Positions 4,795 through 63,667 of a stretch of DNA of 64,000 nucleotides are shown in pieces. The translations under genes were made by a program, and so were the position numbers. Every line of letters starts with the position of its first letter. Position 1 is the first letter of the stretch. Under the pieces are notes generated by a model. It had not been told where the DNA came from, made no database searches, and worked only from the letters and a program-made list of their open reading frames with translations. This DNA is from Choricystis sp. odSpoLacu1 (lineage: Eukaryota > Chlorophyta > Trebouxiophyceae): assembly GCA_958009055.1 (NCBI GenBank), contig OY253650.1, forward strand, positions 1,240,001-1,304,000. The letters run 5' to 3'.

Positions 4795-5697
4795 TGCGCA
4801 CTTTTTTTTGTGTCCACTGTTGTTTCTTGATTGCAAAACTGAGAAAGCCTGCCGCCACACCATGTGGTTGGCAACCACGTCGCGGGAGAGGGTGTGCGGT
4901 GTGCTGTGAAAGGTGGGGCAGGCCGACAGCGAGCGCCAACGGAACGAAGCCCGACCGGCTCACTCCTTTTCTTCCGCGGCGGAGGGACGCCCTCCTTGCC
5001 CGTTTTCCCTCGAGGTGAGACACCGGCGCCACGCCCCTACTTGACCAGAGCTCATGCGTGTGCGGCAGGACGGGCGCCCGCTGGCGGGGGGGGGGGGGGG
5101 AAGAGAGGCGCGCACACCCACCCGCTGGCAGAGCCGCATGCCCCAGCCGTCCTGCCCCCCCCCCACGCGCCCCCTCCCGCGTCCTCCGAGACGGCGCACG
5201 CCCCGTTGACGTCTGCCTGACCACGCTCCACCCGCCCTGGGGCGTGCCGAGGTGGTGGTGGCGGGCCCCGGTGTCGAAACCGTCTGCGCCAGGCCGCAGC
5301 CCCCGCGCCTCGGCCGGCCACAGCGGTGTTTTGCAGCAGTGGGGGCGTGGCCTGTGTGTCGCTCCTCCTCCCGCCCGCCCGAGGCGGGTCACGGTGGCCA
5401 GCCCTGCAATGTGGGCGGCGCGACGGAGGGGGCGCCGGGATGGGGCCCGGCGGGCAAAGGGGGAGGCGTTGGGAGAGAGAGCGAAGAGCCAGCAAGAGGG
5501 GCGTCCCCCCCCACTCACGCCCCCACGCTCACTCGACCTTCTTCTCTCACCCGCACACAGGCCCCGCCCCGCTATGGCGCGCACCACCTGAGCCAGTCGC
5601 GCTCTAAAAAACCCTAAGACACACACACACACACACACACACACACCGTCCGTCTGTCTGCTCTGTGTGTTTTTTCCTGCGTTTTTCCGACAACACA
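4795..5697. other. gene-poor stretch before the ubiquitin hydrolase
   Basis: About 900 bases without a recognisable gene. It may contain a 5' UTR intron of the downstream gene: a donor-like GAGGTGAGA at 5015 and an acceptor-like CCGCACACAG ending at 5560. After this acceptor lies a 5-codon upstream reading frame (MARTT, from about 5575) and an (AC)14 repeat at 5619-5646, just before the start at 5698. Both the intron and the upstream frame are inferences. Confidence 0.35.
5619..5646. repeat. (AC)14 microsatellite in 5' leader region
   Basis: Perfect alternating AC repeat about 50 bases upstream of the ubiquitin hydrolase start codon at 5698. Confidence 0.85.
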
Positions 5698-20791: not shown

Positions 20792-20938
20792 CAAAAAAAG
20801 GGTCGGGTGTTTGTGTCGAAATTCGACGCACACAAAACACGCTCGGGTTTTTCCACACGCCGCGCAGCGGGGTGTGGATTCCCGTCTTCGGTGTTTGGCA
20901 AGGCACACACACACAACCACACACATCAAACCACACGA
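20792..20938. promoter_or_regulatory. bidirectional promoter region GNAT / RlmN-like
   Basis: 147 bases between divergent starts of two probable organelle proteins. It contains a short CA repeat. Inferred from arrangement only. Confidence 0.4.
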
Positions 20939-28885: not shown

Positions 28886-31575
28886 ATGGCGTCGTCGCCG
28901 GGCGTGAGTTGTGGGGGGGAAAGGATTGTGTGTGAGGAGGCCTGCCCCTCTCGACCCTCGACTCACCCGCCCACCATGCTCGGCCTTGATGACGACGACC
29001 TGGCCGCCCTGGGCCTGCTGGACGTGCCCCCTCCTCCTCCGCCCCCTCGGGCCGCGCCGCCGCCGCCCCTCGCGCTCACAGCGCTCGCCGCGCGCACCCC
29101 CCCCTCCGTGGCCGGCGTCCCTCCCTCCCGCTGGCCGGCCGACGCACCGGGCGCCCCTCTGGCCACCCGCTTCGTGGCGGCGTTGCCGGGGGTGGCCGCC
29201 TTCGATGCGGCCGCGTTTGGTGTGAGCGCGGCGGAAGCCGCGGCCACCGACCCCCAACAGCGGCTGCTTCTGGAGGCGGTGGGGGCGGCGTTGACGCGGG
29301 CGAGTGCGCACGGTGAACGTGAGTTTGTTTTGGAAAGAGAGTGTGGGGGGTGCTCAGGGGTGGCGTTTTTTTTGTGGCTCGACGCCTCAACCCATCCCAC
29401 CCCCACCCACCCAGCCTTCGACCCCGCCTCCGTCTCCGTCGCCGTCGGTATCTCCTACGTCGAGTACGCGCTCGACGTCGCCGCCGAGGGCGCCTCCACC
29501 CCGCACACCGCGGCCGCGGGCACACTCTCTGCAGCCGCGGGGCGCGTGTCGTTTGCCCTCAACCTGCGCGGCCCCTGCGTCGCGGTGGACACCGCGTGCT
29601 CGTCATCGTTGGTGGCACTGCACGTGACGGGGACGTTGTTTGTGCACGGGAGTGGTGGTGAATCAAGCACAACGACACCCACCGGCCGCGGCGGCGGCGT
29701 CGCGGCGGGCGTCAACCTGTGCCTCCGCCCTGCCACCGCCTCCATCCTCGCCCGCGCCTCCATGCTGGCCCCTGACGGCCGCTGCAAAACGCTGGACGCG
29801 GCAGGGGATGGGTACGGCCGAGGGGAGGCGGTTGTGGCGGCGGTGGTTGAGGAGTGGCGCGGCGGGGGCGGGGGCGGCTCTCCGCCCCCGCTCGCGCTGC
29901 TCGCCGCCACCGCGGTCGCCCAGGACGGACGCTCCGCCTCCCTGAGCGCGCCCAGTGGGACGGCCCAGCAGGCTGTGCTGCGCCAGGCGCTGGCTGTGGA
30001 GGCAGGGAGTGGTGGGGGTGGGGGTGGCGTGTTCAGCACACCCTCGCCCGCCTCGCCCTCCTCCTCCTCATTCGAACTGCATGGCACCGGCACCCCCCTC
30101 GACCCCATCGAGCTGGGGGCCGCTCTGGCCGTGCTGGCCCCTGTCGACGCTGGCACTGTGCTGACCGTGACCGCCGCCAAGGCCGCCACCGCGCACGGCG
30201 AGCCCGCCGCGGGCGGCGTTGGCGCGGCGGCAGCGTCGCGCCGCGCGCGCGGCGGCGCGCTGGCCCCCCTCCCCACCCTGCGCACCCTCAACCCGCACGT
30301 GGGGGCAGCGGCGGGGGCTGTGACCCGGCTGGCCGCGCCTCGGGCGGTGGCTCCCGGGCCAGGGAGTGGTGTGTGTGGCGTGAGTGCGTTTGCTTACCAA
30401 GGCACCAACGCGCACACCCGCCTCGCGCCGCCTTCTTCTCTGGCACCACAGACCACATCCATCGATGACGCGTCCCTCACGCTGTGGCGGAGGGCGAGGC
30501 ACTGGTTCAGGCCTCGGGCGCACGCGCTCGCGGCGCGCGTCGCGCGCGCGTCTGCGGCGGGTGCTGGCTTCGACGCCCCACTGGCCTCCCCCTCCCTCGC
30601 CTGGCTGGCCCAGGCCGTGGTGGCGGGCACGCCCCTCGTGCCTGTGTCCGCCCTGTGTGAAGCCGCGGCCGGGGCGGCGGCCTCGCTGGCGCCGCAGGCT
30701 GGGGCGGCGCCGGGTGTTGCGATTGTGTTTGCCGCGCTTTCCGCCCCCTTGCCCACCCGCGGTGGCGCCCGCCTCACCGTGTGGGTGGGTGGCGACGGCT
30801 TCGTCACCGTGGGCGGCGGAAGCGGTGTCGTATGCTTGACGGCAGTGGTGGCGACGGTGGCTGGTGGGACTGCTCCCGCTGCGCGCTCGCGCCGCCGCTG
30901 CGCGCTCGTGCCCAACCTCCCACCCCCCACCGCCGCCTGCGTCGCTGACCTGGACGTGCGCTGCGCCCCCCGGTCCGCATTCTGGGCGCACCCCGCCCTG
31001 GGCGAGGCAGCGATGCACCTGGCGGCTGCGGGTGGGGCGGTGGCGGGCGCCTCGGTGCCAGCGTCTGTCGCCTGTTACGCGCCGCCCGCGCCCGCGCGCG
31101 CCGCCGCCGCCCACGCAGCCGCATCGGCACGGCGTGGGGCTGCCGGTGGCGCTCTCGCCACCATCACCGCGTGCCTGTCGACCGGCGACGATGGCACGCC
31201 GCACGCCCTGGCAGCGGGCGCGGCGCTGCGTGCCGCGGGCGCGGTCGCGCCTCAGCAGCCGGCTAGGGCTGCAGCCCCCGCTGCCGCCACAGTCGCCGCT
31301 CCCACCGGCCCCCGCCCCTCGCACGACGCCATTCTGGCCACTGTCATGGCGGCTGTGGCAGCCGCCGCGGGCGGTGGCGGCAGTGGTGGTGTGGCCCTGG
31401 CCGCGACGACCCCGCTCGCAGATGTCGGTCTCGACTCGCTCGGCGCAGTGGAACTGCGCGACTCCCTCGCCTCCGCCCTGGGCGTCCCCCTGCCCGCCAC
31501 CCTGGCGTACGACCACCCGACGCCTGGCGCGGTGGCGGCTTACATTGAGGGCGTGCTGAGCGGCGGGGAGGGGGC
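28886..31575 (+). other. PKS module 1: KS-(DH)-ACP, first module
   Basis: KS1 spans about 29080-30425 and is interrupted by intron 29319-29414. Its Cys codon is 29597-29599 in VDTACSSSLVALH. The first His motif reads ELHGTGTPLDPIELG, lacking the Gly that every other KS has in PLGDP, and the second is TAHGEPAAG. A DH-like domain follows (about 30480-31080), but its site reads AQAVVAGTPLVP without the His. ACP1 is 31325-31560, with the phosphopantetheine Ser (codon 31436-31438) in DVGLDSLGAVEL. There is no KR and no recognisable starter-loading domain, so how the chain starts is unclear. Confidence 0.85.
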
Positions 31576-34500
31576 TGGTGCGGTTGCGCCGCTGCTTCCA
31601 CCGCCGACCACCACCACCACCACCGCCATCGCCGTCTTGTCAGTCGCCTGCGCCGCTCCCGCCCCGCCCGCGCTGGTTGTTCCTGCCCGCTCTGGCGCCA
31701 CCACCTCGGATGCTGCCTCCGCGGCGGCGTCCCTGTTTACGGGCGTGGACGCAGCCGCGCGCGTCCCCGCCGCGCGCTGGACGCCCGACACCGCGCCGCG
31801 CCGCGCGCCCCGCTTTGCCTCCTTCCTGGCCCAGCATGCAGCCTCCTTTGATGCAGCCGCCTTCAGGATGAATGCTGCCGATGCGGCGGGGGCGGATCCA
31901 CAGGCCCGGCTGGCGCTGGAGTGTGCGGCGGGCGCGCTGGCCGGGTCACACGCTCAACCTGCCACGACTGCCGCGGCGGGTGTTTTCATCGGCGCCGTCT
32001 TTCACGAGCACTACACCTCCCTCTCCACCTCCGGCGAGCCCGACACGGCCGCCACCCTGACCGGCACCGGCCTCCACTTTCTGGTGGAGCGGGTGTGCTA
32101 CCAGCTGGGCCTCATGGGCCGTGCGTCGGGCTCGACACCGCGTGCTCGTCCGCGCTGGTCGCGGCGCACGCGGCCGCCGCCTCCATCACGCGGGGCGACG
32201 CCCCCCTCACCCTGGCGGGCGGCGTCAACATGATACTGCTGGCGTTGACGTCGGCCCGCCTGGCGGCGCTGGGAGCGTTGGCGCCCGCGGGGCGGTGCGC
32301 CGCGCTCGACGCGGCCGCCGACGGGTATGGGCGCGGCGAGGGCGCCACGCTGCTGGCGTTAGCGCCCGCGGGCGATGACGCCGCCTCAACCGCTGCCGCC
32401 ATCCTGGCCTCCACCGCGGTCAACCAGGCGGGCCGGTCGTCCGGCCTGACCGCGCCCTCGGGGCCGGCGCAGGCCGCGCTGCTGGCGAGCGCGCTCGCGT
32501 CGGCGCGCGCGGCCCCCGCAGACGTCGCCTCCCTGGTGCTGCACGGCACGGGCACGCCTCTGGGCGACCCCATCGAGATGGGGGGCATTGGAGTAGCGTT
32601 TGGTGGCAAGGAAAACGCTGGCACGCTGAGGCTGGCTGCCTCCAAAGCGGGGTGGGGCCACACAGAGGGCGCGGCGGGAGGGCACGGTGCGGTCGTGGCA
32701 GCCGCGTCGGCCGCCACCCTTGCCACCCCCCCCGTCCTGCACTTGACCACCGTCAACCCGTACGTGGTGACCGCGTGGGACGACTGGCGGCGCGGAGGCG
32801 GCCTGACGGCGGCCGTCGCGCGCGCGCGCGCGCCTGCCGTGGAACCGCGGGCCGCGCCCCTGTCAGCTGTGTCCTCCTTTGGCATGAGCGGCGTCAACGC
32901 GCACGCCTTGCTGTCAGCGGACGCGTCTGGATGCGCGCCCACGCCGTGGGCTGCCGCCACGCCGCTGCAGTGGCGCCGCGCGCGGCACGCGGCCGCCTCC
33001 GACGCGCGCTGGTTGGCCGCGCGCGCGCTGCCCGCTCTCTCCCCCCCAATCGCCGCCCGCTTCGCATCACCGCTGGGCGTGCCAGCTCTGGCCCATCTGT
33101 GCGACCACGTGGTGGGAGGGCGCCCCATCCTGCCGGGCGCAGCGATGCTGAATGCGGCGGCGGGCGCGGTGGCGGCGCTGTCGCACGGTTTCTCTTCTTC
33201 CTCCTCCACCGCCGCCCTGGTCGCAGTCGCGCTCCCTTCTCCCGTGCCTCTGGTCTCCGACGCCAACGGTGCCTTCCCCATCCTTGAGTGCGCCGTCGGC
33301 CGCGACGGCGGCGTGAGTGTGGGCGTGGCGGGCAAGGCCGCGTGTCTGAAAGCGACGGCGGCGGTGGTGGTGTCCGTGGCGCCCGCCCCTCGCCCCGCCC
33401 GCCGCCACGCGCTGGGGAGGGTGATGATGGTGGCGGTGGCGGTGACTCCGTCTCGGTGGATTGGTGAGTTTTGGGGGGAGAGAGAAGAAGAGAGTGAGAG
33501 AGAGGGAACGGAGACCCCCCCGCACGTGTTTCCCACCGCCCCTCCAACCCCCACCCAGCCTCCCTCCCCCCCACCGCCTGGCCTCGCTCCACCGGGTTCA
33601 CCCCCCCCCCCCCCCGCCCTGGATGCCGCCATGCAGTTGGGCCCCGCGTCCGGGGCGGACGCGCTGCGCAGGGCTGCAGAGCGGGGTGACCCGCCCTCCG
33701 CGGGGGGCCCCTTTGTTGTTGCAGGCGTGGGCGCCTTCCTTGCCTCACGCCCACACGTGGGCGCGGGCCTGTGGGCGACCTGCGACGGGGGCCCTCCCTC
33801 GGGCGACAGGCTGGAGAGCGACCACTGGCTGCGCGGCGCAAAGGGAGGCCGCGGCGCGGTCGCCACCCGTCTCCTCGGCAAGCGCGCGCCCCGCCCCCCC
33901 TGCCCCGCGGACGCGGTGACCGCCCCCCACACACTGTACGTGACGCAGTGGCGTGTGGATGAACCCGTGGTCAGGGTCGAGGCACGTGGCGCGCGGCGGG
34001 CGCGCGTGTGGCCGGCAACGGTTGTCGCGTCAACAGCGCGCGGCGCCCTGCAGCCGCGCACCCCCCCGCCCGGCCTCACGCCCTGGACCGCGGCCATTGC
34101 CGCCGTGGCTGACGTCCAAGCTCGCGGCCTGTCGTCCGGCCGGGCCACCCTGCGCACCGCGGGCGCGGTGGGCGCGCCGCGCGGCGGCCCTTGCCGCTCC
34201 GCAGCGCCGCGCGCCGCGGCCGCGGGGGCGGCGGCGGCAGGCTTGCTGCGCGTGGCGGCGGCTGAAAATCCACACATGGACATGCGTGTGCTGGATGACG
34301 CGCCTGAAGCGGTTTTCTCGGCCTCTCTGGCCACAGCCGCCCCCGCAGCCGACGCGCTCGCGGTCGTCGGGGGTGCCATCACCCGCCCCCGCCTCCTCCG
34401 CGCCCCTCCCCCCCGCACCACCGCCCCCCTGGACCCACCCGGCCACGCCACCGACTGCATGCTGATCACGGGGGGCATGGGGGCGGTGGGGTCGCTGCTG

Positions 34501-37500
34501 GGGGCGTGGGCCGCCGCTTCGGCGCGCGGGCGGGCGGCGCGCGTCGTCCTGCTCGGCCGCACGGGGCGGCCCTCCTCCGACACCGTGCTGTTGCCGCACG
34601 CTGCACCGCCCGGCGTCGTGGCCATCCTGGCAGCCGCAGACGTGGCCACAGCCGCCGGGGCGGCAGCCGCTTTTGGCGCGGCGTGCGGGGCGGGCGCGCC
34701 GTCTCCGCTGCGCTGCGCCCTCCACGCGGGGGCGGTCCTGGACCCTGCCGTGGTGGCCAACGTGACGCCCTCCACCGCCCGCACCGAGTTTGGCGCCAAG
34801 GTGGCGGGTGGCGCCCGCCTGCTGGCGTCGGCGGGCGTGGGTGCCGCCCCCCTGACGGGTGGCGCGCACGCGTTTTCATCGTTGGCCGCGTTTGCGGGTT
34901 CTGGGGGTCAGGCCGCCTACGCCGCCGCCAACTCGGCCCTGGACGCTGCCGCGTCGGCAGCGTCCGCCGCCGGCCTCCCCCTCACCACCGCCCAGTGGGG
35001 CGCGTGGGGGGGGCGCGGCATGGCGGTGCGGACGGCCGGGTTTGCGGCGCGCGCGGCGCGGGCGGGACTGGGCGTCCTCCCGCCCTCGGCGGGCGCGGCC
35101 GCGCTTGCCGCGTTGTTGGCCGCCTCGTCCGGAGACCCCGCCTCTTCCGGCCGCCTCGCAGGCCAGGCCACCGTGGTGGCCAACGTGTTCCTGTGGGGGC
35201 GGCTGCCCCGAGTCGATGGGGGCGGCCTGTATGGCGAGGTGTGGGTGGAGGCGACACAGCGACAGCGCCCGCGCCCGCGCCGGCGCCGCCCACCCCCCGC
35301 CTCCCTTCCTCCTCCTCCCCTCCCTCCTCCTCCCCAGCCGGCGACGCCCTCGCCACCGCCACGGCCATGGTGTCCACCGCCCTGGTCACCGTGCTGGGTG
35401 GGGCGGCGGCGGCGGGCCTGGCGTCCACCGCCCCACTCTCCGACGCGGGGCTCGACTCGCTCGGCGCGGTCGACCTGCGCAACGCGCTCGCGTCCGCCCT
35501 GGGGGGTGGCGCCGACCTGCCCGCCAGCCTGGCGTTTGACTACCCCACACCCGCCGCGCTGGGGGCGTATGTGGCGGGGTTGATCGGCCAGCGGGGTGGT
35601 GGTGGTGGTGGTGATGGCAGCGACACCGCCGCCCCCCCCTCTCCCTCCCTCCCTCCCTCCCTCCCCTCCTCAGCCCCTCCCTCCTTTGACCTCGCCATCA
35701 CGGCAGCCGCCGCCGAGTTTGGGTCCACGCGGTCCCCCCTGACCGCGTTGAGTCTGGCGGGGGATTTGGCCGTCGGCGGCGACTCGGTCGCCCCCATCCC
35801 TCCCGGCCGCTGGCCCGCCGACCCCCACTACTCCCCTACCGCCTCCCCCGGCCGGGCCAACGTGCGCCTGGCGGCTTGGCTGCCGTCCATCGACCGCGTG
35901 GATGGCGCCGCCTTTCGCCTGGCCCCGCCCGATGCAGCGGGGCTGGACCCGCAGGCGCGCAGGCTGCTCGAGTGCGCGGCGGCCGCGCTGGCCCCTGTGC
36001 CCCTGCCCCCCGCCGACTCTGCGGCCGGGGGCGGGGTGGGGCTGTATGTGGGCGTCATGCATCAAGAGTTTGTGGCGGCGGTGGCAGGTGCGTGTTTGGA
36101 GGGGAGAGCAGGAGAGGTGTGTGTGAGCGAGCGCGCTCCTCTTTGTCCTCACCCCCTCCCCCTCCCTCAGCCGTCGGCGCCCCCGTCACCCCGCCCGTCG
36201 TCACGGGGTCCGGCATGGACTTCCTGGCGGGCCGCGTCTCCCACGCCCTCAACCTGGCGGGTCCCATGGCCGCCGTGCACACCGCGTGTTCTTCATCGCT
36301 CGTCGCGCTCGCGCTGGCCGCAGCCTCGGTGCGCGCGCGCGACGCGGCGGCCGCCCTCGCGGCCGGCGTCCACATCATGCTGCTGCCCGGCACCATGGCC
36401 GGCATTGCAGGCCTGGCCGCCCTGGCCCCCGACGGACGCTGCAAATCGTTCGACGCGGGCGCCGACGGGTATGGGCGGGGGGAGGGGGTCGGCGCGCTGC
36501 TGGTCGCGCCCGCCTCCCCCTCCTCCTCCGACCCACTCGCCATCCTGCGCGGCGCGGCGGTGCTTCACGCCGGCACCGCCTCCTCCCTGACCGCGCCCTC
36601 GGGCCCCGCGCAGGCGGCGTGCGTGCGCGCGGCGCTGGCGGGGGCGGGGGTGGGCGCGGCGTCTGTCGCCGCGGTCGCGACCCACGGCACCGGCACGCCT
36701 CTGGGCGACCCCCTGGAGCTGGGCGCCCTGGCTGCCGCTTTGGGGGGGGGGCGCCACGCCCCCCTCACCCTGGCCGCCCCCAAAGCGCGGCTGGGGCATG
36801 CGGAGGGCGCGGCGGGCGTCGCGGCCGCGCTGGTCGCGCTTGCTGCGGCCGGCACGGCCGCCCCCCCCCCCGTCTCCCGTCTGGCCGGCCTCAACCCGCA
36901 CGTGTGCGCCGCCCTGGATGATTGGCGGGCCAGGGCGGGTGGCAGCGTGGCGGCGGCTGTGCCGCGCGCGGCCGTCCCCGCGCCCTCCGCGTCCTCGTCC
37001 GCCATCGTGGGAGCATCCTCCTTTGGCATGAGCGGCGTCAACGCGCACGCCGTGCTGGACGTGGTGGCGGGCGCAGGCCTGGCCAGGGGGCGGGGCGGGT
37101 GTGGCACCTACCGCCGCACCACCGCGTGGCCCGCGCCGCGGCCGACGCTGTTGGCGGGGCGCGCGGCGGTCGCGGCGGCGGCGGCGGCCGTCGTTTTCGA
37201 ACTCGACCTCGCCTCCCCCCGCCTCGCCTTCCTGACGCACCACACGGTGGGGGGGACAGCTCTGCTGCCTGCGACGGCAGCCCTGGAAGCCGCCGCCGCG
37301 GCGGCTGGGGCGCTGCTGCCCCCCGACTCGGGCGTCGCGATCGTCGGCGTCGCGCTGAGCGCGCCGTTCGTGTTGCCTCGTGCCCGCTCCACCGCCTCCT
37401 CCCTCCTGGCCGTCACCATCGACGTGGCCACTGGTGAGGTTTCCATTGGACGTGCGCGTGGTGGCGCGCCCACCGCGCGCGGCCGCGTGGCGCCGCCTCT

Positions 37501-52500: not shown

Positions 52501-55500
52501 GACCCTCTCGCCGCCGCCTTTGACGCGCCCGCCTTCTCCCTCCCCCCGTCCGAAGCCGCCGCGCTGGACCCCGGGGTACGCCTGCTGCTGGAGGGGGCTG
52601 CGACGGCGTTTGGACGGGCGGGTGGGAGCATTCTCGCGCGTCCCCAAACCGTCGGCGTTTTCGCTGGGTCAATGCACGCCGCCGCCTACGGTGACCTCCT
52701 CAACCGCTGTGGCGCCCCCCTCACCCCCGCCGCCGCCACCGGCAACTCGCTGGCCTTTCTAACCGGCCGCCTGGCCCACGGGTTTGGGTTGGGGGGGCCT
52801 GCGGCTGCGATCGACACAGCGTGTTCATCGTCGCTGGTCGCCCTGCACCTCGCCTCCCGCGCCCTCACCTCCCGCGACGCGGCCGCCTCCCTGGTGGCGG
52901 GCGTCAACGTCATGGTGTCGGCGTCCGCGGCGGCGGCCACGTGCGCGCTGGGGGCGTTGGCGCCGGCCGGGCGGTGCCGCGCGCTCGACGCGGCGGCCGA
53001 CGGGTATGGGCGCGCCGACGGCGCGTTAGTTGTCGTGCTGGGTGGGGCAAGTGACAGTGAAGCCGCCGACTCTGACGCCCCTCCTCTGGCACTCATTGCG
53101 GGCAGTGGTGTCGGCCTGGCTGGCCGCGCCGCGGGGCTCACCGCGCCCTCTGGCCCCGCCCAAGCGTCCGTGGTCGCGGCCGCGCTGCACGCGGCGGGCG
53201 CGACGCCGACCGACGTGGCCGCCGTGTCTCTGCACGGCACGGGCACACCGTTGGGCGACCCCATTGAGGTGGGGGCGCTGGTGGGTGGGCGCGAGGCGTC
53301 GTCGTCATCGTCGTCGTCGGCGCCCCCTCTCACCCTGCTCGCGTCCAAAGAGTCCCTCGGCCACGCTGAAGGCGCGGCCGGCCTGGTGTCCGCCCTGTTT
53401 GCGGCTGCGGACGCGGGCGGCGGCCCCCGCCCGGGAGTGTTGCACCTGCGCACGCTCAACCCGCACGTGGGCGCCGCGCTCGCGCCCGGCGCAACCGCGC
53501 CGCGCGCAGTTGGCCCCTCCCACGCGTCCTCCGCCCTGCGCGGCGCGTCCTCGTTTAGCATGAGCGGTGTGGACGCACACGCCATTGTTGTTGGTGCGGG
53601 TGGCACCGCCCAGCCGTCCATGGCCACTCCGCAGTGGCGCCGCGCCGCCGCGTGGCCCGCGCCGCTGGTTGGGTCTGTTGCGTCAGCCGTGCTGACCGCC
53701 ACCCCTCACACCGTCACGCTGGCGGGCAGTGTGCGTGGTGACGACCTGGCTACCCTGATCGCCGCCCCCGTGGCCGCCGCGGTCGCGTGTGTGCGTCCTG
53801 CCGGCGCGCGCGGCCCGCTGCTGACGCGCGTCGCCTGCATCGCCGCCGGCCGCCTGGCGGCACACCCGGTCACAGTGACTGTGGCCACTGGTGGTGGCGA
53901 CGTCACCGTGCTGTGTGGCGGGGTGCCGGCGTTGACAGCGTCAGTGGCGGCAGTCGCGGCGGTTGCCGCAACCGCGCCCCGCCCCTCCCGCCGGCACGTG
54001 CTCGCGTCGGTGTCCTTGCCCGCCCTGCCATCTGCCTCTTCTGCAGTCACCACTCTGACCACCCCTCCCGGCCTGCGTCTGGACGGCGTCGGCCGGTCCC
54101 TGCTGGCCGACGCGGCCACCGCGCTCGCGGCCGCGGTGGGCGCCGACGGCGGCCGCCTGGCCACCGCGGCCGCAGTCGTGCCGCTGCCGACGCAGCTGAC
54201 GGGCGGCAAACACACCGTCACAGCGCGGCTGGATGGGAGGGGCAGGGTGCACGCTGTGGCCGCGACGGCTGCCACGGTGGCCGCCACGCTCGCGCCGCCC
54301 GCTGCGCCCGCCACACCGCTGGCGCACGCCACGCACGCGCTGGCTTGGCGCAGCATTCGGCTTACAGGACGCTCTGTCGATGAGCGCCAGCGTGTGTGGG
54401 CCATCATTGACTGTGGCGACGCTGTGGCAACGGCGTCGCTCACACTCTGCCGCCATCGTCCACGCCTACCGATCTGGCCACCCTGCGCCCATCCCGCATC
54501 ATCATTGTGGCGCAGCGCGGTGGCCAGGACCTCACCTCTGAAGCTGGCCTGGCGTCTGCTGCCGCGCTCGCGCCGCTGCGCGCAGCGGCGACGCTGGCAG
54601 CCGGCGCGGCCGCCCCGCCCCGCACGTCCCTGGTCACGCGCGGCCTGTGTGGCGTGTTGGTCAGTGACACCAGTGACGAGGCGGGACCCGGCGCGGCTGC
54701 CGGCCTGGCCAGGGCCCTGTTTTGGGAGGCGCGCGGCGCGGCGGGCGCTGCGGTCGACCTCCCTGCCGCCTCGCCGCCGGCGCCATCCACCCTGGCCGCC
54801 GCCCTGACCAGCGACGAGTACAGTGTCGCCCTGCGTGGCGCTGGTCACGCGTTTGGCGTGCGGCTGGTGCCGACCGTGCAGCCTGCGCTCGGCCGCGCCC
54901 CACCCTCCCTCCGCGGACGCACCGCCATCGTGCTGGGCGGCTCCGGCGGCCTGGGCGCTGAACGCGCGCGCCAGCACGCGGCCGCGGGGGCCGCCTGCAT
55001 CGTACTGGCGTCGCGGTCGGGAGGCGTGGGCGGCGGGGGCGGCGGCGCCGCGCGGGTCGCGGCGCGCGGCGGCTGCGGGGTGATCGCGGCCGCCCTCGAC
55101 ACAGCCAACGCGGCCGCCGTCACCCGCCTGCTGGCCTGGGCGCGCGACCACCTGCCCCGAGTTGCGTGTATCGACGTGGCGGCCGGCGTGTCGGGGTTCG
55201 ACCTGGTGGCTGACACCCCGGCGCCCACCCTTGCCCGTGTCGCGGCCCCCAAGCTGGGCGCGGCGGCCGCCCTGGTCGCGGCAGCGCCCGCCACCGCGGC
55301 CGTCACATTCTTTTCGTCCACGTCGGCCGCCTGGGCGCAAGCGGGGGCGGGTCACTACTCGGCTGCGAATGCTGGAGTCGACGCGGTCGCAGCTACCGCG
55401 CGCGGCGCGGGGCGCGCGTTTGCTGCTCCCCGGCTGGGTCCATTCTCGGGCGTCGGCATGGCGGCCTCTCACGCCGACCAACTGACGGCGTTGGGCATTC

Positions 55501-58500
55501 GCCCCCTGCCCGCGTCCGCGCTGGCGTCAGTGCTCGGCGCGGGCGCGCGTGGTTCGGGCAACGCTGTCGTCGCCGCCCTGGACCCCGGCCGCTTTGCCGC
55601 GGTGTCCATGGCGCGGAGTGGCTGGAGACTGCTGGACGAGTGGGACGTGGTGGAGGCTGGCGGGGAGGTGGCAACAGCGGCTGTCGCTGCTGCGACTGCC
55701 GCTGCTCCATCCGCCCCAGCCTCCTCCCTCCCGTCCCTCGCCTCCATCCGGTCCGTCGTCCTCACAGCACTCACCTCTGTCCTAGACCCGTCCATTCCTC
55801 TGTACGACGGTGACGGCGCCTTCCCTGCGGGCGCCCTGGACTCGCTGGCCGCCGTCGAAGCCGCAGCCACCGTCTCCTCCGCTGTCGGTCTCACCCCGCC
55901 CCTGCCGCCGACGGCGGCGTACGACTACCCTTCCGTGGCCGCCCTGGCGGCGCACGTGCACGGCGTGCTGGCCGACAAGGCGGGCGTGGCGGAGAGGGTT
56001 GTGGCGGCGCCCCCGGTGCCGCTCCCTTTAACCACCACCTCCCGCCCCACCATCACGCTGCGCACCGCCGCCCGCCTGGCCGCCCCACTGGACGCTCCTG
56101 ACGCTCCCTCCATCATCCCTCACGCGCGCTGGGACGCGGACGCGCCCCCCCGCGTGGGGCGGCGCGCACGCGTGGGGCCGCCGCGCCGGTTTGCGACCTG
56201 GCTGCCGACCGTCGACGCGTTTGACGCGGCCGCGTTTGGGGTGCCGGCCCCCGAGGCGGATCTGATGGACCCCCAGCAACGGTTGCTGCTGGAAGGGGCG
56301 GCAGCTGTGTTGGCTGGAGGGGGTGGGGATGGCGCTGCTGCTGCCACCACCCTTTCCCTCCGCTCCCGCTCCGGCGTGTAGGTCGGCATCCAGCAGATGG
56401 AGTATGGCGGCCTGGCTGCCCCCCACCTGGACGCGGTGGGCCCCTACTCTGCGACGGGGGGGCCCTTCTCCGTCGCGGCAGGGCGCGTCGCGTTTGTGTT
56501 TGGCCTGACAGGCCCCGCCGTCGCCGTCGACACCGCCTGCTCGTCCGCCCTAGTGGCCACCCACCTGTCTGCCCGCCACCTGCGGGCAGAGGGAGAGGTT
56601 GGTGGTGGCGCCCTGGCCGCGGGCGTCAACCTGCTGCTCGCGTCGGCCACCACCGCCGCCGCGACGGCCGCCGGCATGCTGACCCCCGACGGCCGCTGCA
56701 AAGCCCTGGACGCGGCCGCCGACGGCTACGGCCGCGCGGAGGCGTGCGTGGTGATGTGGCTGGAGAGCGAGGGGGAGGGAGGTCGCGGTGGCGCGCGCCC
56801 CCCGCGCGCGCTGCTTGCTGGCTCCGCCGTCAACCAGGACGGCCGGTCCTCCTCCCTGACCGCGCCCAACGGGCCGGCCCAGCAGGCTGTGCTGCGGGCT
56901 GCCGCCGCAGACGCGGGAGGCCTTGGCCTCGCTCACGCAGAGCTGCACGGGACGGGCACGGCGCTGGGTGACCCGATCGAACTCGGCGCCGTGTGGGCAA
57001 CGACCGCCACGGACGCCACAGGCCAGGGCACACGGCTGCTTCCTCTCGCAGTGGCTGCCGCCAAGTCGCGCCTCGGCCACTCGGAGCCGGTGGCGGGCGC
57101 GGTCGGCGCGGCGGCGGCCGGCGCCGCCGTCACGTCCGCCGCCCTGCTGCCCACCCCCTGCCTGCGCACCCTCAACCCGCATGTGCTAGCACTGCTGGAC
57201 GGCCCCGTCAGCGGCCGCCGCCCCCTGGCCGCGCCGCGGACTGGCGCGCCGCGCGCGGCGACCGGCGCGGCCGGCGTCAGCGCGTTTGCTTTCCAAGGCA
57301 CCAACGCGCACGCCGTGTTGACAGCCGCCAGTGGGGACGGTGGCCCGACTGATGCAGCCTTGTCCCTGCCCTGGTGCCGGGCGAGGCACTGGTTTGCGCC
57401 CGCGCCGCCGGGCGCGCTCGCGCGCCGCGTCGCGGTCGCAGTGCCCACCGCCGCCACCTTTGCTGCTCCTCTGGGCGCCCCGTCTCTCGCCTACCTGTGG
57501 CACCACGTGGTGGGGGGCACCCCCCTGCTGCCAGCCACCGCCGCCCTGGAAGCCGCGGCCGCGGCGGCGCGGTGCGTGGTGGTGGCGCGCGATGATGACG
57601 ACGCACGTCCTTGCATCGTCGCCGTCGCGCTCGCCGCGCCGCTGCCGCTCGCGCGCGACACCACGCTGACTGCGCGCGTGGGCGTGGCGGGAGATGTGAC
57701 TGTGTCATCGGCATCCTCCTCCAAAGCGCACGTCACGGCGCGCGTGGCGCGGGTGGCGCGTGTTGTGGGCGCGCTGCCGCGCGCCGCGCCGCGCCGCTCG
57801 CCTCTGCGCACTCAGCTGCCGCCCCCGCGCGCCGCAGCCGCCACCGGCTGCCTGGCGCCCCCGCCCGCCGGCCCAACCGGCGCCCACACGGGCGTGCACC
57901 CCGCCTCCATGGATGCCGCCACCCACACTGGCGCCGCGCTGGCGGGGGGCAAGGAGAATGGCAGTGGTGTGCGCGTGCCGGCTTCAGTGCGCGCGTTTGA
58001 CGTCTGCGCCCCCTCCACCCCAGCCACCCGCGTGGCCGCCTCCCTGGCCGCCTCCCTGGATGGCGGCGCGGTGGGCCACTTTGACACGCAGCCCGCCCGA
58101 CTGGCGGGCATCGTGTTCAAACGGGCGCCTGGGCTGGGGGGTGGGACTGTGTCGCAGCCGCGCTCGGCGGCGGCGACTGAGGCACCATCCACCCGGCCGC
58201 CGTGGTCGGCGCTGACCGTCGACTGGGCGGCTTCTGAGCCCGCGCCTGGACGGTCAGCGTCGCCGTCGACGTCTGTGCCACCCTATCCGCATGTCACGCT
58301 GGCGTCGCTGCAGCGCGGTGGCGGCGCGCTGTCGCCGCCTGCGCGCGCACTGCTGGGCTGCTTGCCAGCCGCCATCCCATCGCGCCGCGCCGCTGACGCG
58401 GCCGCGGCAGCTGCCATCGCCCGCGTGGCTGCCCGCGAAACTCGGCGCCCCGCCCCCCTGCCCGACGCGGAGGCGGGGGTGCGGCACGCGCCGGCGCTCG

Positions 58501-61500
58501 CGCCGACGCGCGAGCACGCACGCCGCGCGCCCACCCCTCACCCCGGCGCCGCCATCGCCATCGGTGGCGCCAGCGGCATTGGCGCGCTGGCGTTGGCAGA
58601 CCATTCAGTGACCACAGGCGGCGCCACGCTCGCCGTCGCACTGCGCGCCGACGCGGCTTGCGCGGCGGGCGCGTCCGCGGTCGCGGCCGCCTCCCTCGCC
58701 CTGCCCAACCGTGTAATTACGTTGCATGCAGCTGGCGGCGTGCTGGCCGATGGCTTGCTGCCTTCCGTGCGCCCGACCGCGCTGCGCAGCGTTGCCGCCC
58801 CCAAGCGCGCCGCGCTGGCCGCGCTGGGCGCGACCCTGGCCCCCGCCCCCCTGGCCACGCTGGCCCTGTATTCTTCACTGTCCAGCGTGCTGGGCACACC
58901 GGGTCAGGCTGCGTACGCGGCCGCCAACGCGGCGCTGGACGCCGCGACGGTCGCAGGCGCGTCTGCCGGCCTGCCAGCTGCCGCCCTGCAGTTTGGCCCC
59001 TGGAGCCTTGGCATGACGGCTGGCACGTCCACAGCTGCGTTGGCCTCCCGGGCCCGCTTTGCGGCGGCGGGGCTGGGCGTGCTGACGCCGGTGGTGGGGG
59101 CGCGCGCGCTCGCGCGCGTCGGCGGCATCGCCGGTCCCCTCATCCTGGCCTCGCTGGCGCCCCGGTCCACCGACCGTGTGCCGCTGGATGAGCTGGGGTT
59201 GAGCGAGCTGGAGGATGTCCGCACAGAGGGGGCTGCAGTGACGCCGGCCGCCGTGGCGGGCGCCCCTGGTGCTGGCGCGCCCCCGCCCCGCGCCGCCGCT
59301 GCCCCTTCCACCGCCACCACCACCGCCGCCTCCGCCCTCGTCGACACCGCCCTGCGCCGCATCCTGGGGTCCCTGCCCGACGCCCACACCTCCCTCACCG
59401 TGGCGGGGCTGGACTCGCTGGGCGCGGTGGAACTGCGAGATGCGCTTGCAGCGTCCGCACATGTCGACCTGCCCGCCTCCCTGGCGTTTGATGCGCCCAC
59501 GCGGGCTGAGCTGGTGGTGGCTGTTGATGCAGCCCTGGCGGAAGCGGCGGGGGGCAGCGTTGAGCTGGCGGCGGCGGAGGAGTGTGCCACGGCCGTGGCC
59601 ACCCAGCCGGCCGCGCTGGCGCCGCCACCCACCCTCGCCCCTCCCCCCTTCCCGTCCACCACCATCGCCATTCTGGGTGCCCACACGCTCTACCCGGGTG
59701 CGGCCGACGGCCCCGCCGGCCTGGCCGCCTGGCTGGCCAGTCCACGGGACGCGGCCGCGCCCGTGCCCCTGGCGCGCTGGCCGGTGGACGCGGCCTACTC
59801 TCCCACCCCCCGCCCCGACGGCTCCGCCTCCGTGTACGCACGGATGGCGGCCTTCCTGCCCAGCCTGGTCGCCTTTGACGCGGCCGCGTTCAGGGTGCCG
59901 CCCCCCGAGGCGGCCGCGACCGACCCGCAGCAGCGGTCGTTGTTGACGGCGGCCGTGGCAGCAGCTGTCGACGGCGGCGTGGCCCCTCTGCCCACCGACA
60001 CGGGCGTCTACGTGGGGTGCATGTACCACGAGTACGTGGACGCAGCCGCAGAGGTGGCCCCCGCGCGGCGCGGCGCCGCGGGGCCCGCGCTGCCCCCCGC
60101 CTCGTACACCGGCACGGGCGGCGCCTACATGTGCGGGCGCCTGGCCCACACACTGGCGTTAACAGGCCCCTGCGTGTCCACCGACACCGCGTGCTCGTCA
60201 TCGTTGGTGGCGGTGCACCTGGCGGCTGGCGCGGTCGCGTCCCGGGCCGCCACGCGCGCGGTCGCGGGCAGCGCCAACGCCGCCCTGCGCGCCGCCACGC
60301 ACGCGGGCGTGTGCGCGTTGGGCGCACTGGCGCCCGATGGACGCTGCAAAACGCTGGACGCGACCGCTGACGGATATGGGCGGGGCGAGGCGGTGGCGAT
60401 GGTGATTGTCGGTCGGTCGACCCCCGCCCGCCCCCCGCGCGCGCTGCTCGCTGGCTCCGCCGTTGGCCAGGACGGCCGGTCAGCGTCGTTGACCGCGCCA
60501 TCTGGCCCCGCCCAAACCGCAGTCGTGCGGGCCGCCCTGGCGGAGGCGGGCGGGGCGGACACCGCGCGCGTCGCCGCGGTTGTGCTGCACGGGACGGGGA
60601 CGCCGCTGGGTGACCCCCTTGAACTCGGCGCCCTGGCGACCGCGCTGGCCCCTCCACCTCCTCTGCACGCACAACCCTGGCCCTGGTGTCCACCAAAGCC
60701 GCCCTGGGCCACACGGAAGGCGCGGCCGGAGTCACGGGCGTGCTGGCGGCAGCCGCCGTGGCCGCGCGCGCGCCCGGCCCGCCGTCGCGCCACCTGCGCT
60801 CGCTTAACCCGCACGCGGGCGCCGCCATCGACGACGCACGCCGCAAGGCGGGGCGGATGGTGCAAGCGCCCCGGGCTGCGTGCGGGTGGCCGGCAGCGGC
60901 CGGTGGCGCCGTCGGCGCGTCCTCGTTTGGCATGAGCGGCGTCAACGCACACGCGGTCGTTGTGGGTGCGGACGCTACCGCCACCACAACCACCGCCCCG
61001 CCCCTGCTGTGGCGCCCGTCGCGCCACTGGTTTGCGCCGCCTCCTCACGCCCTGGCCCGCGTGTTCGTGGCGGGTGGCGGCCACGAGGACTCTGTGTTTG
61101 AGTCGCGGACGGAAAGCGCGTGGGCGGCCTGGACGGCGGCGCCCGGCGCGCCCGCCGCCGTCGCTCTGGAAGCCGGCACAGGGGCAGTGGCCCTGATGCT
61201 GGGGGATGGGGTCGACGCACCCACCCTGGCGAGCGTGACGCTGGGGGAGAATGCCAACGATGACTCTGTGCTGCCGCTGCGTGTGTCTGTGTCCCGCCGC
61301 GGCGGCACTCTCTCCGTCACTGGAGGCGGCTCCCACCTGCTGGCAGCGACCGTGGTGGCGACAGCGCCCAAGGTGGGTGGCGGCTGTGGCCAACACCGGC
61401 GCCGCCTGGCGTCGGCGCCGCGCCGCGCGCTGCCCGCCGCTGCCGCTGTCGCGACCATCGACGCGCCCTGCCCATCCCTGCTCGACCCTGTGCGCCTGCA

Positions 61501-63266
61501 CCCTGGCGCATGGGCGGGCGCCATCACGCTGGCCGGACTGAGCCAGCGCGGTGCTGTGACCGCGCTGGCCGCCGTGTCGGCGGTGGCGGCGCCAGTGCCT
61601 GCTGCCGCGGCGTCTGTGTGCTGGGTGGCCGCCGCGTGCGCAGCCGTGCGCGTGGCGCCCACAACAGCCGCCCTGCTGCGCCCGACCGTCAGGCGTCAGG
61701 CCGCCATCTCCAGCACCGCCGCCCGCGCTGCGGTGGCGTGTCGGTACGAGCTGGAGTGGCGGGTGGACGTGCCTGGCGACGCGGCGCGCGCTTCCGCCCG
61801 CCGCCGCCGCCACGCCCCCTCCATCCCCACCATCACGGCCGTCGTCGCGGCCGCCCGCCACCTGGCGGACGCGCCTCCCGGCGCCATCGAGCTGGCATCA
61901 TCACACGGCGCGTGGGCCGCGTCGGTCGCGCCCACGCGCACACACGCTGGCGCCGCGGCTGCTGCTGTCGCGGCAGTCGTGCGCTGCCTGCCGTTTGAGA
62001 AACCCGACCTGCGGGGCACGGTGGCGGATGGGGAGGGGGATGTGGGCCCCGGTTTGGCCCCACCGACCGCGCCAACCGCCGTCGACCGCGCGGCGCGCGG
62101 CGTCGCGGTCCGCGTGCCGCGCCTTGTTTATGCTGCCGCCACCCCATCCACCCCCTCCCTCCCCTCCCCCGCCACCGCCCTCATCACGGGTGGCGGCGGC
62201 GGCCTGGGCCTGGTGGCCGCGGGCGGCGCCCTGGCACGCGGCGCGCGCGGCATCGTGCTGCTGGCGCGGTCGGCGCGCGCGCCGCCGTCCGCGGCGGCCG
62301 CGCTTGCCGCGGCCGCTGCCACGGCTGCCGTGACCCTGGCCGCGTGCGACGCATCCTGCGCGGCTGATGTGGCGGACGCGGCGTCGGTGTCTGCCGCAGC
62401 ACCATGCCGCCTGGGCTCCCTCATCCATTCGGCCGGCACGCGCGGCGCGGCAGCACTGGCCCGCCTCGCCCCCCTCCGACGCGCGGGCCGCGGTCGCCCC
62501 AAAAGCCACCGCCCTGGTGATGCTGGGGCGGGTGCTGACGCCTGCGTCCCCGATGAACTCCGCAGTCACGTTTTCGTCGGTGGCTGCGACGGCCGGGTAT
62601 GGCGGCCACGCCGCGTACGCGGCCGCCAACGCGGCGGCCGACGCACTGACCACCGCCGCCGCGGCCGCCGGCCTGCCCACCACCTGCATTCAGTGGGGTG
62701 CATGGGGCAGCGTCGGCATGGCGGCCGACCGCGTGTCGGCGGACCGGGCAGCGAGCGGCGCGACGCTGACGCCGGTTGTTGGCGCGGCGGCGCTCGAGGG
62801 GGCGTTGGCGACGACGGGGCTCCACTCCCCGCCCGCTGTCACGGGGGCGGTGCCGCGTCCCTACTGGCAGGCCCTGGTGGATGGCGGTGGCGGGGGCGCC
62901 GTGCCCCCGCTGCTGCAGGACGTGGTGTCGAAACGCGAGTTTGTGCGCGTTGCCGCAGCCGCGCCCGCCGCCGCGCCCACCCCCACCCCACCGCCCCCCA
63001 CGCCCACCACCACCGACGACGTCACCTCCTTCCTCACCGCCGCTGTGACCGACTTGACAGGGGCGCCGCCGCCGTTGTCCGCGACCGCGCTCGCGGCTTC
63101 AGGCGTCGACTCACTCGCAGGCGTCGAGCTGCGCCGCCGCGTCGCGTCCCGCTTTGGCGTCGATACCCCCTCTGGCGGCGGACGGAGCAGCCACGGTGGC
63201 CAGCATCGCGGCCGACGTGGTGGCCAAGGCGAGGGTGGGAGGTGGCAACGGACGGCGGGGACGTGA
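28886..63266 (+). CDS. giant AT-less modular type I polyketide synthase, nine modules
   Basis: One plus-strand gene of about 34 kb encoding about 11,300 residues. Exons are 28886-29318, 29415-33463, 33559-36087 and 36171 to the end. A second in-frame start is at 28976. Nine ketosynthases each keep the Cys-His-His triad, and there are eight ketoreductases, one enoylreductase, hotdog dehydratase-like domains after every KS, and ten acyl carrier domains. No acyltransferase (no GHSxG block), methyltransferase, loading ligase or thioesterase was seen, so malonyl units must be supplied in trans. Single-base frame breaks lie near 32117, 33600-33615, 35250-35340, 43322-43336, 45690, 46790, 48421-48431, 48850-48858, 49843-49860, 52240, 54440, 60660, 62468 and 63167, plus an in-frame TAG at 56379. 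The end is uncertain: TGA at 63264-63266, or TAA at 63319-63321 if the last carrier domain is completed in the next frame. Repeated RRARHWFAPP-like linkers join KS to DH. The product is unknown. Confidence 0.93.
31576..35620 (+). other. PKS module 2: KS-DH-KR-ACP
   Basis: KS2 is about 31625-32930, with Cys codon 32143-32145 in LDTACSSALVAAH, then VLHGTGTPLGDPIEMG and GWGHTEGAAGG. One C appears missing at about 32117, where GLMGPCVGLD is expected. DH2 is about 33040-33900, with LCDHVVGGRPILPG and the second motif ALDAAMQLG. Intron 33464-33558 and a C run at 33599-33615 lie inside it. KR2 is about 34455-35020: MLITGGMGAVGSLLG, catalytic Ser and Tyr in SSLAAFAGSGGQAAYAAAN, and QWGAWGGRGMAV. ACP2 is 35350-35580 with DAGLDSLGAVDLR. 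All sites look active, so the module should leave a double bond or a hydroxyl. Confidence 0.85.
35621..40580 (+). other. PKS module 3: KS-DH-ER-KR-ACP, the only fully reducing module
   Basis: KS3 is about 35690-37065, with intron 36088-36170, Cys codon 36287-36289 in VHTACSSSLVALA, ATHGTGTPLGDPLELG and RLGHAEGAAG. DH3 is 37195-37740 with LTHHTVGGTALLPA. A structural (non-catalytic) KR half lies at about 38050-38350. ER3 is 38470-39345: RISVRAVGLNFRDALNVLG, GGDFAGVV and the NADPH loop HGGAGGVGLAALRVL. KR3 is 39390-39965: WLITGGGGSLGGVA, SSAAVFGAPGQAAYAAAN and QWGAWDVGMAA. ACP3 is 40330-40530 with TAGLDSLGAVELR. The gene is uninterrupted by frame breaks across this whole module. It should leave a saturated two-carbon unit. 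Confidence 0.88.
40581..44580 (+). other. PKS module 4: KS-(DH)-KR-ACP
   Basis: KS4 is about 40705-41985, with Cys codon 41183-41185, ALHGTGTPLGDPIELG and ATAHSEAAAGG, ending SAFAFQGTNAHAL. The DH-like region 42060-42750 reads LTGHAAGAATPALPPG, where spacing around the His is altered and the second DH motif is not clear, so it may be inactive. A structural KR half is at 42780-43300, then a frame break in the C run at 43322-43336. KR4 is 43470-44060: TVVVTGGTSGLGLAVAHA, STAAAWAQPGAGHYAAGS (Tyr kept, the following Asn replaced by Ser) and LGPFGGAGMAAS in place of WGAW. ACP4 is 44300-44545 with VDAGLDSLAAVEL. Confidence 0.82.
44581..48545 (+). other. PKS module 5: KS-DH-KR*-ACP-ACP, tandem carriers and mutated KR
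   Basis: KS5 is about 44635-45840, with VGIQQMEYGGL, Cys codon 45076-45078 in VDNACSSALVAAH, ELHGTGTPLGDPIELG and RVGHAEPAAG. One C appears missing at about 45690 (SVNPHVVASL expected). DH5 is 45975-46660 with LHQHVVAGVPLLPA and HPACLDAATHAA, apparently intact. KR5 is 47150-47690: WLITGGGGGLGRL is normal, but the active-site block reads SSMSTLFAPSGQANCAAAN with Cys (codon 47572-47574) instead of Tyr. Two carrier domains follow, ACP5a (47950-48175, DAGLDSVAALNL) and ACP5b (48275-48520, DAGLDSVGAVDV), the second broken by a G run at 48421-48431. Confidence 0.83.
48546..52240 (+). other. PKS module 6: KS-DH-KR-ACP
   Basis: KS6 is about 48565-49935, with frame breaks in a C run at 48850-48858 and a CG repeat at 49843-49860. 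Its Cys codon is 49128-49130 in VDTACSSSLVATH. The first His motif reads ALHGTATPLGDPLELG, with Ala for the usual second Gly. The second is SVGHTEGAAG, and the domain ends SFGMSGTNAHAL. DH6 is 50060-50760 with LLDHRVGGTALLPG and AALDASLHLG, apparently intact. KR6 is 51215-51740: ALIVGGLGGLGSLAA, YGSIAAVVGSAGQAAYAAAN and QWGAWSGTGMAA. ACP6 is 52010-52230 with MDAGLDSLGAGEL. Confidence 0.83.
52241..55995 (+). other. PKS module 7: KS-(dh)-KR-ACP
   Basis: KS7 is about 52305-53590, with Cys codon 52822-52824 in IDTACSSSLVALH, SLHGTGTPLGDPIEVG and SLGHAEGAAG, ending SFSMSGVDAHAI. The region 53640-54340 has the length of a DH but lacks the HxxxGxxxxP motif. A frame break lies near 54440 in the structural KR half. 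KR7 is 54895-55465: TAIVLGGSGGLGAERA, SSTSAAWAQAGAGHYSAAN (Tyr and Asn present) and LGPFSGVGMAAS. ACP7 is 55730-55975 with AGALDSLAAVEAAATV, where GLDSL reads ALDSL. The predicted output is a hydroxyl. Confidence 0.82.
55996..59565 (+). other. PKS module 8: KS-DH-KR-ACP, with in-frame TAG
   Basis: KS8 is about 56035-57330. In-frame TAG at 56379-56381 sits directly before VGIQQMEYGGL, at a position where other KS domains have Phe or Tyr. Downstream the frame is unchanged: Cys codon 56538-56540 in VDTACSSALVATH, ELHGTGTALGDPIELG, RLGHSEPVAG and SAFAFQGTNAHAV. DH8 is 57460-58115 with LWHHVVGGTPLLPA and HPASMDAATHTG. KR8 is 58545-59025, short, with AIAIGGASGIGALAL, SSLSSVLGTPGQAAYAAAN and QFGPWSLGM. 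ACP8 is 59330-59545 with VAGLDSLGAVEL. Confidence 0.82.
56379..56381 (+). other. in-frame TAG inside KS8 of the polyketide synthase
   Basis: The reading frame is the same on both sides of this codon (RSRSGV before, VGIQQMEYGGL after). Sister domains read VFVGIQQMEYGGL and VYVGCMYHEY here, so TAC or TAT (Tyr) would be expected and a single base change explains it. TAG also ends the DUF4211-like gene at 2829-2831, so TAG is not obviously reassigned. Confidence 0.8.
59566..63266 (+). other. PKS module 9: KS-(dh)-KR-ACP, last module, no release domain
   Basis: KS9 is about 59650-60970, with Cys codon 60192-60194 in TDTACSSSLVAVH, VLHGTGTPLGDPLELG, a frame break near 60660, ALGHTEGAAG and SFGMSGVNAHAV. 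The region 61030-61740 is DH-sized but lacks the His motif. KR9 is 62170-62720, with ALITGGGGGLGLVA, a C-run break near 62468, SSVAATAGYGGHAAYAAAN and QWGAWGSVGMAA. ACP9 begins at about 63010 with AASGVDSLAGVELRRRV, and its last helix (ATVASIAADVVAKA) is in the next frame after the C run at 63165-63169. No thioesterase, reductase or condensation-like release domain follows. Confidence 0.82.
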
Positions 63267-63667
63267 GGGGGAGAGGGGAGTCTTTTCATTCACTTTTCAT
63301 TTTTTTTTCTTCAATTTGTAAGGCCGATCGGTCTTCTTTGGGGAGAGTTGATATCAACAGAAAGGGCTTGGCGGGGCGCGCAGACACACAGAAAAAGAGT
63401 GAGAAGAAACAATGATCGCGCTCACTCTCACACCTCGCCCTTCATTTTTCTGGTCGCCTCGCCTCGTCCCCCCGCCACAAAAGGTGAGTCCCTGCGTGTG
63501 CCTTCCCCCACCGACCGCCACAGGTCGGCACGGACGCACCAGAACAGCCAACAGCGTGTGGATTGTGGGGGCGGCAGGACGCGCGCGCGGCCGGGGGGGT
63601 CGCGTACACGGCGCGAGGCGACTCTCACCTTGTTTCTTCCACACCCTCCCCCCCCAGCCCTCCCACC
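63267..63667. other. intergenic region with probable 5' UTR intron
   Basis: 401 bases between the synthase stop and the next start. An AT-rich 3' UTR (about 63280-63420, with TGTAA at 63317-63321) is followed by a probable 5' UTR intron of the next gene, 63484-63657: donor AAGGTGAGTC and acceptor CCCCCCCAG ten bases before the ATG. No other feature was seen. Confidence 0.5.

Follow-up and report, generated by a model that had tools for sequence, protein, structure and literature searches.

How does a polyketide synthase (PKS) with nine modules and no acyltransferase (AT) in any of them come by its malonyl units? The question is raised by a gene in a 64,000-nucleotide stretch of DNA (the window; positions 1240001-1304000 of contig C2) in an assembly of 14.6 Mb and 19 contigs, and it touches two standing questions about green-algal megasynthases, namely what they make and which enzyme loads them. 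The explanation that we favor, with considerable confidence in the whole, is that the gene encodes a chlorophyte non-iterative trans-AT type I PKS which is served by a free loading enzyme, most likely an ankyrin/MCAT fusion encoded on another contig (AT2, below), and whose product is released by an enzyme encoded elsewhere.

Pfam scans of the ORF pieces, together with the coding bias in three frames, place PKS domains on the plus strand between ~28.9 and 63.3 kb of the window, and the gene span is set at 28886..63318, with 13 frame changes and one TAG. The scans and motif reading yield nine KS, ten carrier domains, eight KR, one ER and five DH with intact motifs (DH states are a by-eye reading of the HxxxGxxxxP region), the same numbers of KS, carriers and KR that a sequence-only reading of this DNA had given. 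Module 1 (KS-DH-ACP) consists of KS1 (29111..30420; DTACSS, HGTGT, AHGE), the first ~33 profile positions of which were not found, a DH-like region (30527..30791) whose HxxxGxxxxP motif lacks the catalytic His, and ACP1 (31397..31546); KR was not found in this module. Module 2 (KS-DH-KR-ACP) contains KS2 (31712..32910; frame change at ~32.12 kb), a DH with an intact motif (33055..33252), a KR with intact S-Y-N (34459..35010) and ACP2 (35388..35573). The sole ER found (38465..39343) belongs to module 3 (KS-DH-ER-KR-ACP), together with KS3 (35694..37050), which holds an intron, an intact DH (37160..37393), a KR (39398..39940) and ACP3 (40334..40525). Module 4 comprises KS4 (40712..41970), read in a single frame, a degenerate DH region, KR4 (43489..44019), in which the Asn of YxxxN is replaced by Ser, and ACP4 (44341..44529). 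Module 5 (KS-DH-KR-ACP-ACP) has KS5 (44680..45820; frame change at ~45.7 kb), an intact DH (45972..46595), KR5 (47155..47664), in which Cys replaces the catalytic Tyr, and a tandem ACP pair (47947..48420; ACP5a found by Pfam, ACP5b by motif). The combination between 45972 and 48420 of an intact DH motif, a KR without its catalytic Tyr and two adjacent ACPs is an odd one.

In the second half of the assembly line, module 6 (KS-DH-KR-ACP) has KS6 (48608..49920; frame changes at ~48.85 and ~49.84 kb), an intact DH (50018..50305), a KR (51215..51721) and ACP6 (52040..52219); module 7 has KS7 (52318..53580; single frame), a degenerate DH region, a KR (54921..55424) and ACP7 (55836..55958); module 8 (KS-DH-KR-ACP) has KS8 (56100..57312), an intact DH (57417..57692), a KR (58635..59006) and ACP8 (59346..59516); and module 9 has KS9 (59661..60950; frame change at ~60.65 kb), a degenerate DH region, a KR (62171..62708; frame change at ~62.46 kb) and ACP9 (63033..63170), 3' of which no thioesterase (TE) was found. 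The active-site Cys, the His of HGT[GA]T and the [GA]H.E-type His are present in 9/9 KS, the last His of KS9 sitting in the next frame, with variants in KS3 (HTACSS), KS5 (DNACSS), KS6 (HGTAT), KS1 (AHGE) and KS4 (AHSE). A full KR motif is present in six of the eight KR, KR4 and KR5 being the exceptions. The KS core pieces are 47-65% identical among themselves, which fits modules related by duplication.

Is an AT truly missing, or is it concealed? The AT profile (PF00698) is absent from the scanned ORF pieces of the PKS, and a six-frame search of the whole genome with it found five AT places, none inside the window, which rules out an AT in another reading frame. In all nine modules, the distance from the G[TV][ND]AH motif to the [WY][RC][RP] linker is only 18-23 residues, and the KS-AT linker profile PF16197 is matched partially, over at most 38 of its 111 positions in any one piece; by contrast, a cis-AT PKS on contig C8 of the same genome matches positions 1-108 of 111 and follows with a 317-residue AT match. 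The sequence-only reading had claimed that no module carries an AT and that a short linker joins KS to DH; both claims are borne out, the first by the very check proposed against it, a search for an AT in the protein. It had also pointed to a missing GHSxG block: the absence of AT stands, but the missing motif is by itself a weak test, because both free transacylases of this genome carry GLSLGE, and the profile search is the stronger one. Likewise supported is its reading of a nuclear algal gene with a trans-AT layout, although among multimodular chlorophyte PKSs this architecture has already been described as the predominant one (PMC4661987).

What kind of PKS is it? Relatives of the longest ORF were ranked among the 8000 candidates sharing most words with it, the only ones scored. 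None of the seven best among the 120 listed (P0001-P0007) has PF00698 among its precomputed domains (0/7); only some of the seven bear an algal name or id, P0003 being named Monoraphidium minutum and P0005 carrying an id that we take to be that of Tetraselmis. P0002 has a source name of "acyl transferase domain-containing", yet AT is absent from its Pfam list. Lower chlorophyte-named matches (Haematococcus P0017, Tetrabaena P0048, Parachlorella P0051 and Raphidocelis P0084) are also without PF00698, and the bacterial-named matches among the 120 mostly contain it. Across 13 AT-less homologs (P0001-P0007 plus six hand-picked lower matches), the G[HL]S.GE motif occurs in 0/13, as against 2/2 bacterial-type controls; by eye, 18 of their 23 KS ends enter a basic/aromatic linker within ~45 residues, of which a strict linker pattern catches 4/23.

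These features have precedents. According to Shelest et al. (2015; PMC4661987), an integrated AT is absent from almost all of ~30 non-iterative PKSs of algae, and in chlorophytes the trans-AT kind predominates. The gene in the window is a further member of this known group, the chlorophyte multimodular trans-AT type I PKSs, rather than a new kind of enzyme, and its source is most likely a green alga. The window gene is like the enzymes described there in being multimodular, without integrated AT and made of modules that resemble one another, and a methyltransferase (MT) match is likewise absent from the window pieces; it differs in species, in its nine KS and one ER, and in that a release domain was not found. 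Chlamydomonas reinhardtii PKS1 (CHLRE_10g449750), in the account given in parts of PMC7073580, is also an AT-less line of about ten reducing modules; its N-terminal adenylation domain and C-terminal TE were not found in the window. Bacterial trans-AT PKSs share modules without AT and an AT encoded apart, but the free ATs of this genome are not clustered with the PKS: one lies ~0.9 Mb from it and the other on a different contig. The bacterial enzymes also typically keep the KS-AT linker (PF16197), in which they differ from the window gene with its fragmentary match.

If the PKS has no AT of its own, which gene could provide one? Three of the five AT places lie in loci with KS matches (C8, C15 and C10), and two are free-standing genes of the FabD type, in whose scanned ORF no further Pfam domain was seen. 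The "single free transacylase" expected by the sequence-only reading is therefore not borne out, since there are two. AT1 (C2:372954), ~0.9 Mb from the PKS, is a plastid-type FabD: it just passes the fabD equivalog (263.2 bits, cut-off 260.9), and its neighbors in the tree are plastid-type MCATs from algae and land plants. AT2 (C3:907406; gene C3:907180-909087, minus strand, 3181-5088 of locus L012) is an ankyrin-repeat/MCAT fusion, the main piece of which scores 158.9 bits on fabD, under the cut-off. From its exons we read ankyrin-type repeats, a conserved GDWWALYDYG stretch and an MCAT that carries GLSLGE; the minus-strand segments L012 5088-4888, 4793-4695 and 4594-3181 can be aligned to P0124 and P0159, each of which combines ankyrin with PF00698, and the frame is broken near the 3' end. 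By our own count, an ankyrin-type Pfam family accompanies PF00698 in 90 of the 120 listed AT2 relatives. The eukaryote-named relatives listed are green algae, including C. reinhardtii (CHLRE_02g088250v5, P0180); some others, Picochlorum included, are presumably green-algal to judge by their record ids.

The two free transacylases are of different types. In a tree of 48 rows chosen from the listed relatives of AT1 and AT2, 26 ankyrin-MCAT rows including AT2 fall on one side of a branch with support 100/100, and 18 plastid-type plus four short FabD-type rows (one named bacterial) on the other. A first tree of 50 rows, two of them cis-AT domains from this genome, suffered from very long branches and broke up the ankyrin rows; it was rebuilt without these two domains. 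Both lists of relatives include Chlorella vulgaris, Coccomyxa sp. Obi, Raphidocelis, Bryopsis, Gonium and Chlamydomonas sp. UWO 241, and C. reinhardtii has another fabD, at Cre14.g621650 (PMC8448359). The N-termini of the two types differ too: 21 of 25 ankyrin-MCATs begin at or no more than ~11 residues from the conserved block (the other four look cut short), which suggests, from sequence, that these proteins have no transit peptide, and the 14 plastid-type AT1 relatives checked have an N-terminal stretch ahead of the FPGQG block. Among the AT1 relatives, a Brassica cretica record (P0244) outranks named Chlorella and Coccomyxa proteins and is possibly an algal contamination of the plant assembly.

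The remaining AT places are of the cis type or like it. At C8:52744-62784 (L007, minus strand) lies a cis-AT PKS with a 3347-aa ORF (KS-AT-DH-MT-ER-KR-ACP), ~850 C-terminal residues of which match no Pfam family above cut-off; a second cis-AT PKS (KS-AT-DH-ER-KR) is at C15:58-65 kb (L010, L048). KS and partial AT matches at C10:349-351 kb (L047), with two TGA codons inside one KS match, mark a third cis-AT-like locus, perhaps frame-broken.

AT2 is the most likely trans-AT of the window PKS, a candidate that would act in the cytosol; it is preferred because AT1 groups with plastid enzymes. A broader proposal, that the green-algal ankyrin-MCAT serves the giant AT-less PKSs of chlorophytes as their dedicated cytosolic trans-AT, docking to them via its ankyrin repeats, seems to us evenly balanced between right and wrong. 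In dinoflagellates, most trans-ATs carry GLSLG and have no targeting signals (PMC7159223); in Symbiodiniaceae, the motif of the trans-ATs is GLSxG, and fusions with HEAT, ankyrin or PPR repeats are frequent among monofunctional PKS or NRPS domains (PMC6361889). The ankyrin-fused trans-ATs of dinoflagellates (PMC7159223, PMC6361889) resemble AT2 in that the repeats stand upstream of a GLSLG AT and no targeting signal is reported, and we infer the role of AT2 from this resemblance; AT2 differs in being green-algal, and the likeness is one of features. In a passage of PMC7073580, the AT of a chlorophyte PKS is only "presumed to be encoded as another gene"; a dedicated ankyrin-MCAT, if true, would fill this gap and parallel the dinoflagellate proposal. 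In the PMC literature searched, we found neither a description of a green-algal ankyrin-MCAT fusion as trans-AT nor work on the green-algal ankyrin-MCAT gene Cre02.g088250.

Does the fusion occur where such PKSs occur? Auxenochlorella, for which PKS1 homologs are reported in part of PMC12633428, and Picochlorum, for which PKS genes are reported in part of PMC6811619, are both among the listed AT2 relatives (Picochlorum by id), and we count this for AT2 as the trans-AT. Trebouxia, Dunaliella salina and Micractinium conductrix are further algae with the fusion among the listed relatives; zero T1PKS clusters are recorded for Trebouxia gelatinosa, D. salina and M. conductrix in Table 1 of PMC7073580, which makes the co-occurrence of AT2 and PKS doubtful, but the same table also gives zero for Volvox and Chlorella variabilis, both listed with such PKSs in PMC4661987, so the survey misses known cases. 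Asterochloris is listed without a type I PKS in the portion of PMC4661987 that covers it. Ostreococcus and Micromonas have such PKSs, and neither name turns up in the list of 120 relatives of AT2; AT2 itself sits on a different contig (C3) from the PKS (C2).

Could AT1 do the job instead, with AT2 serving another carrier, e.g., a mitochondrial one? This is possible, if a good deal less probable than loading by AT2: AT1 is the one that clears the fabD equivalog, if barely; the tie between AT2 and the PKS is inferential; and the fusion turns up in algae without a type I PKS in one survey (the table in PMC7073580). On the other hand, the enzymes with which AT1 groups are plastid-type ones from plants and algae, and the 14 plastid-type proteins with their N-terminal stretch contrast with most AT2 homologs, which start right at their conserved block.

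With AT2 as the preferred loader, the assembly line would operate as follows. A PPTase would (i) arm the ten ACPs, upon which (ii) the free malonyl-CoA:ACP transacylase, most likely AT2 acting in the cytosol, would load malonyl onto each ACP, and (iii) KS1-KS9 would lengthen the chain by nine C2 units. A genome search for PPTases and free transacylases, as the sequence-only reading had advised, returned two places with a PPTase domain (C4:1010529 and C11:308570) beside the two FabD-type genes. The β-carbon would be left unreduced by M1, processed to the enoyl stage by M2, M6 and M8, to saturation by M3 and to the hydroxyl stage by M7 and M9; the outcome for M4 and M5 is uncertain, given the Asn missing from KR4 and the Tyr missing from KR5. 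The finished chain would be released by an enzyme encoded elsewhere, since no TE was found: PF00975 matches three places in the six-frame genome search (C1, C5 and C11), none in the window, and a TE near the PKS gene was rejected. A nearby adenylation or loading domain was rejected as well, adenylation/ligase PF00501 matching 15 places in the same kind of search, none on contig C2.

By the usual PKS logic, a mixed polyol/polyene chain extended by nine C2 units is expected if each module acts once, and the product is probably a lipid-like chain of this sort; by analogy with Chlamydomonas PKS1, it possibly has a role in the cell wall. In this small genome, the presence of a single locus with several KS and of two free transacylases narrows the loader to two candidates, and the same candidate gene is present in Chlamydomonas (CHLRE_02g088250v5), open to knockout. 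Confirmation of AT2 in this role would mean that green algae and dinoflagellates have ankyrin-fused trans-ATs in common.

Is the gene functional at all? The PKS sequence as assembled is not one open gene: its frame map has 16 pieces and 15 boundaries, made up of one convincing intron, one in-frame TAG (at 56379, within KS8) and 13 frame changes. The intron (36088-36170, plus strand, GTGCGT...CTCAG) lies inside KS3, and the "only three introns" of the sequence-only reading are thus reduced to one, the 13 frame changes having no credible intron. GT..AG gaps that a codon-phase script offered at several frame changes were not accepted because their donors are atypical: nearly all (GTCTGT, GTCGCG, GTTTGT, GTGGCA and others) differ from the starts of this genome's HSP70 introns (GTGAGT, GTAAGT or GTGAGA). 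The gap at 49826 has a donor (GTGCGT) like that of the accepted intron, but it was rejected for its ATGAG end and an adjoining GC repeat. At three of the frame changes (KS2, ~32.12 kb; KS6, ~48.85 kb; KR9, ~62.46 kb), the domain profile continues without a gap.

Base-calling error is the likeliest cause, because conserved housekeeping genes of the assembly show the same kind of lesion. An HDEL-tailed, BiP-like HSP70 (C1:1347298-1348811, L040) changes frame without an intron, two class-I tRNA synthetases shift frame over 14- and 19-base gaps (C6:813339/813354 and C13:155557/155577), and the C15 PKS has a frame change within its KS C-terminal domain. The cause is ambiguous for an HSP70 relative on C5, with two gaps of 82 and 84 bases that lack typical intron donors, and for stop-holding matches on C6, C10 and C5. 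One CobN/Mg-chelatase gene and the C8 PKS are free of breaks, and a second CobN/Mg-chelatase gene has a 100-base gap that fits an intron.

That the PKS is instead a decaying pseudogene in this strain is unlikely. True damage would explain why 13 frame changes and a TAG crowd into 34 kb, as against at least three breaks, plus some ambiguous gaps, in ~38 kb of control matches (HSP70, Mg-chelatase/CobN, class-I tRNA synthetases and the C8 PKS; listed lengths summed), and why the AT2 frame break recurs in a second public record, P0121 (1,010,850 bases); these two observations keep it in play. Yet the BiP-like HSP70 and both tRNA synthetases are broken too, the PKS retains its nine KS triads, its ten ACPs and the motif in six of its eight KR, coding bias is continuous through the span, and three of the 13 breaks coincide, by eye, with a run of G, a run of C and a GC repeat. 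Less probable still is a head-to-tail row of several separate PKS genes, the ends of which could be masked by frame changes (borders 5/6 and 6/7 each contain one) and for which there is precedent in chlorophyte megasynthases that are split in some cases (PMC7073580), because at six of the eight module borders (1/2, 2/3, 3/4, 4/5, 7/8 and 8/9) a single frame stays open from the ACP to the next KS.

The base composition of the window is uneven: GC is 0.74-0.79 across the PKS and 0.66-0.71 over most of the first 30 kb, with 0.77-0.80 at 6-10 kb. No Rfam or tRNA matches were found in the window. Upstream of the PKS, and with no obvious partner for it among them, ORFs at 8656-10482 and 19925-21262 match ubiquitin hydrolase (UCH) and GNAT acetyltransferases.
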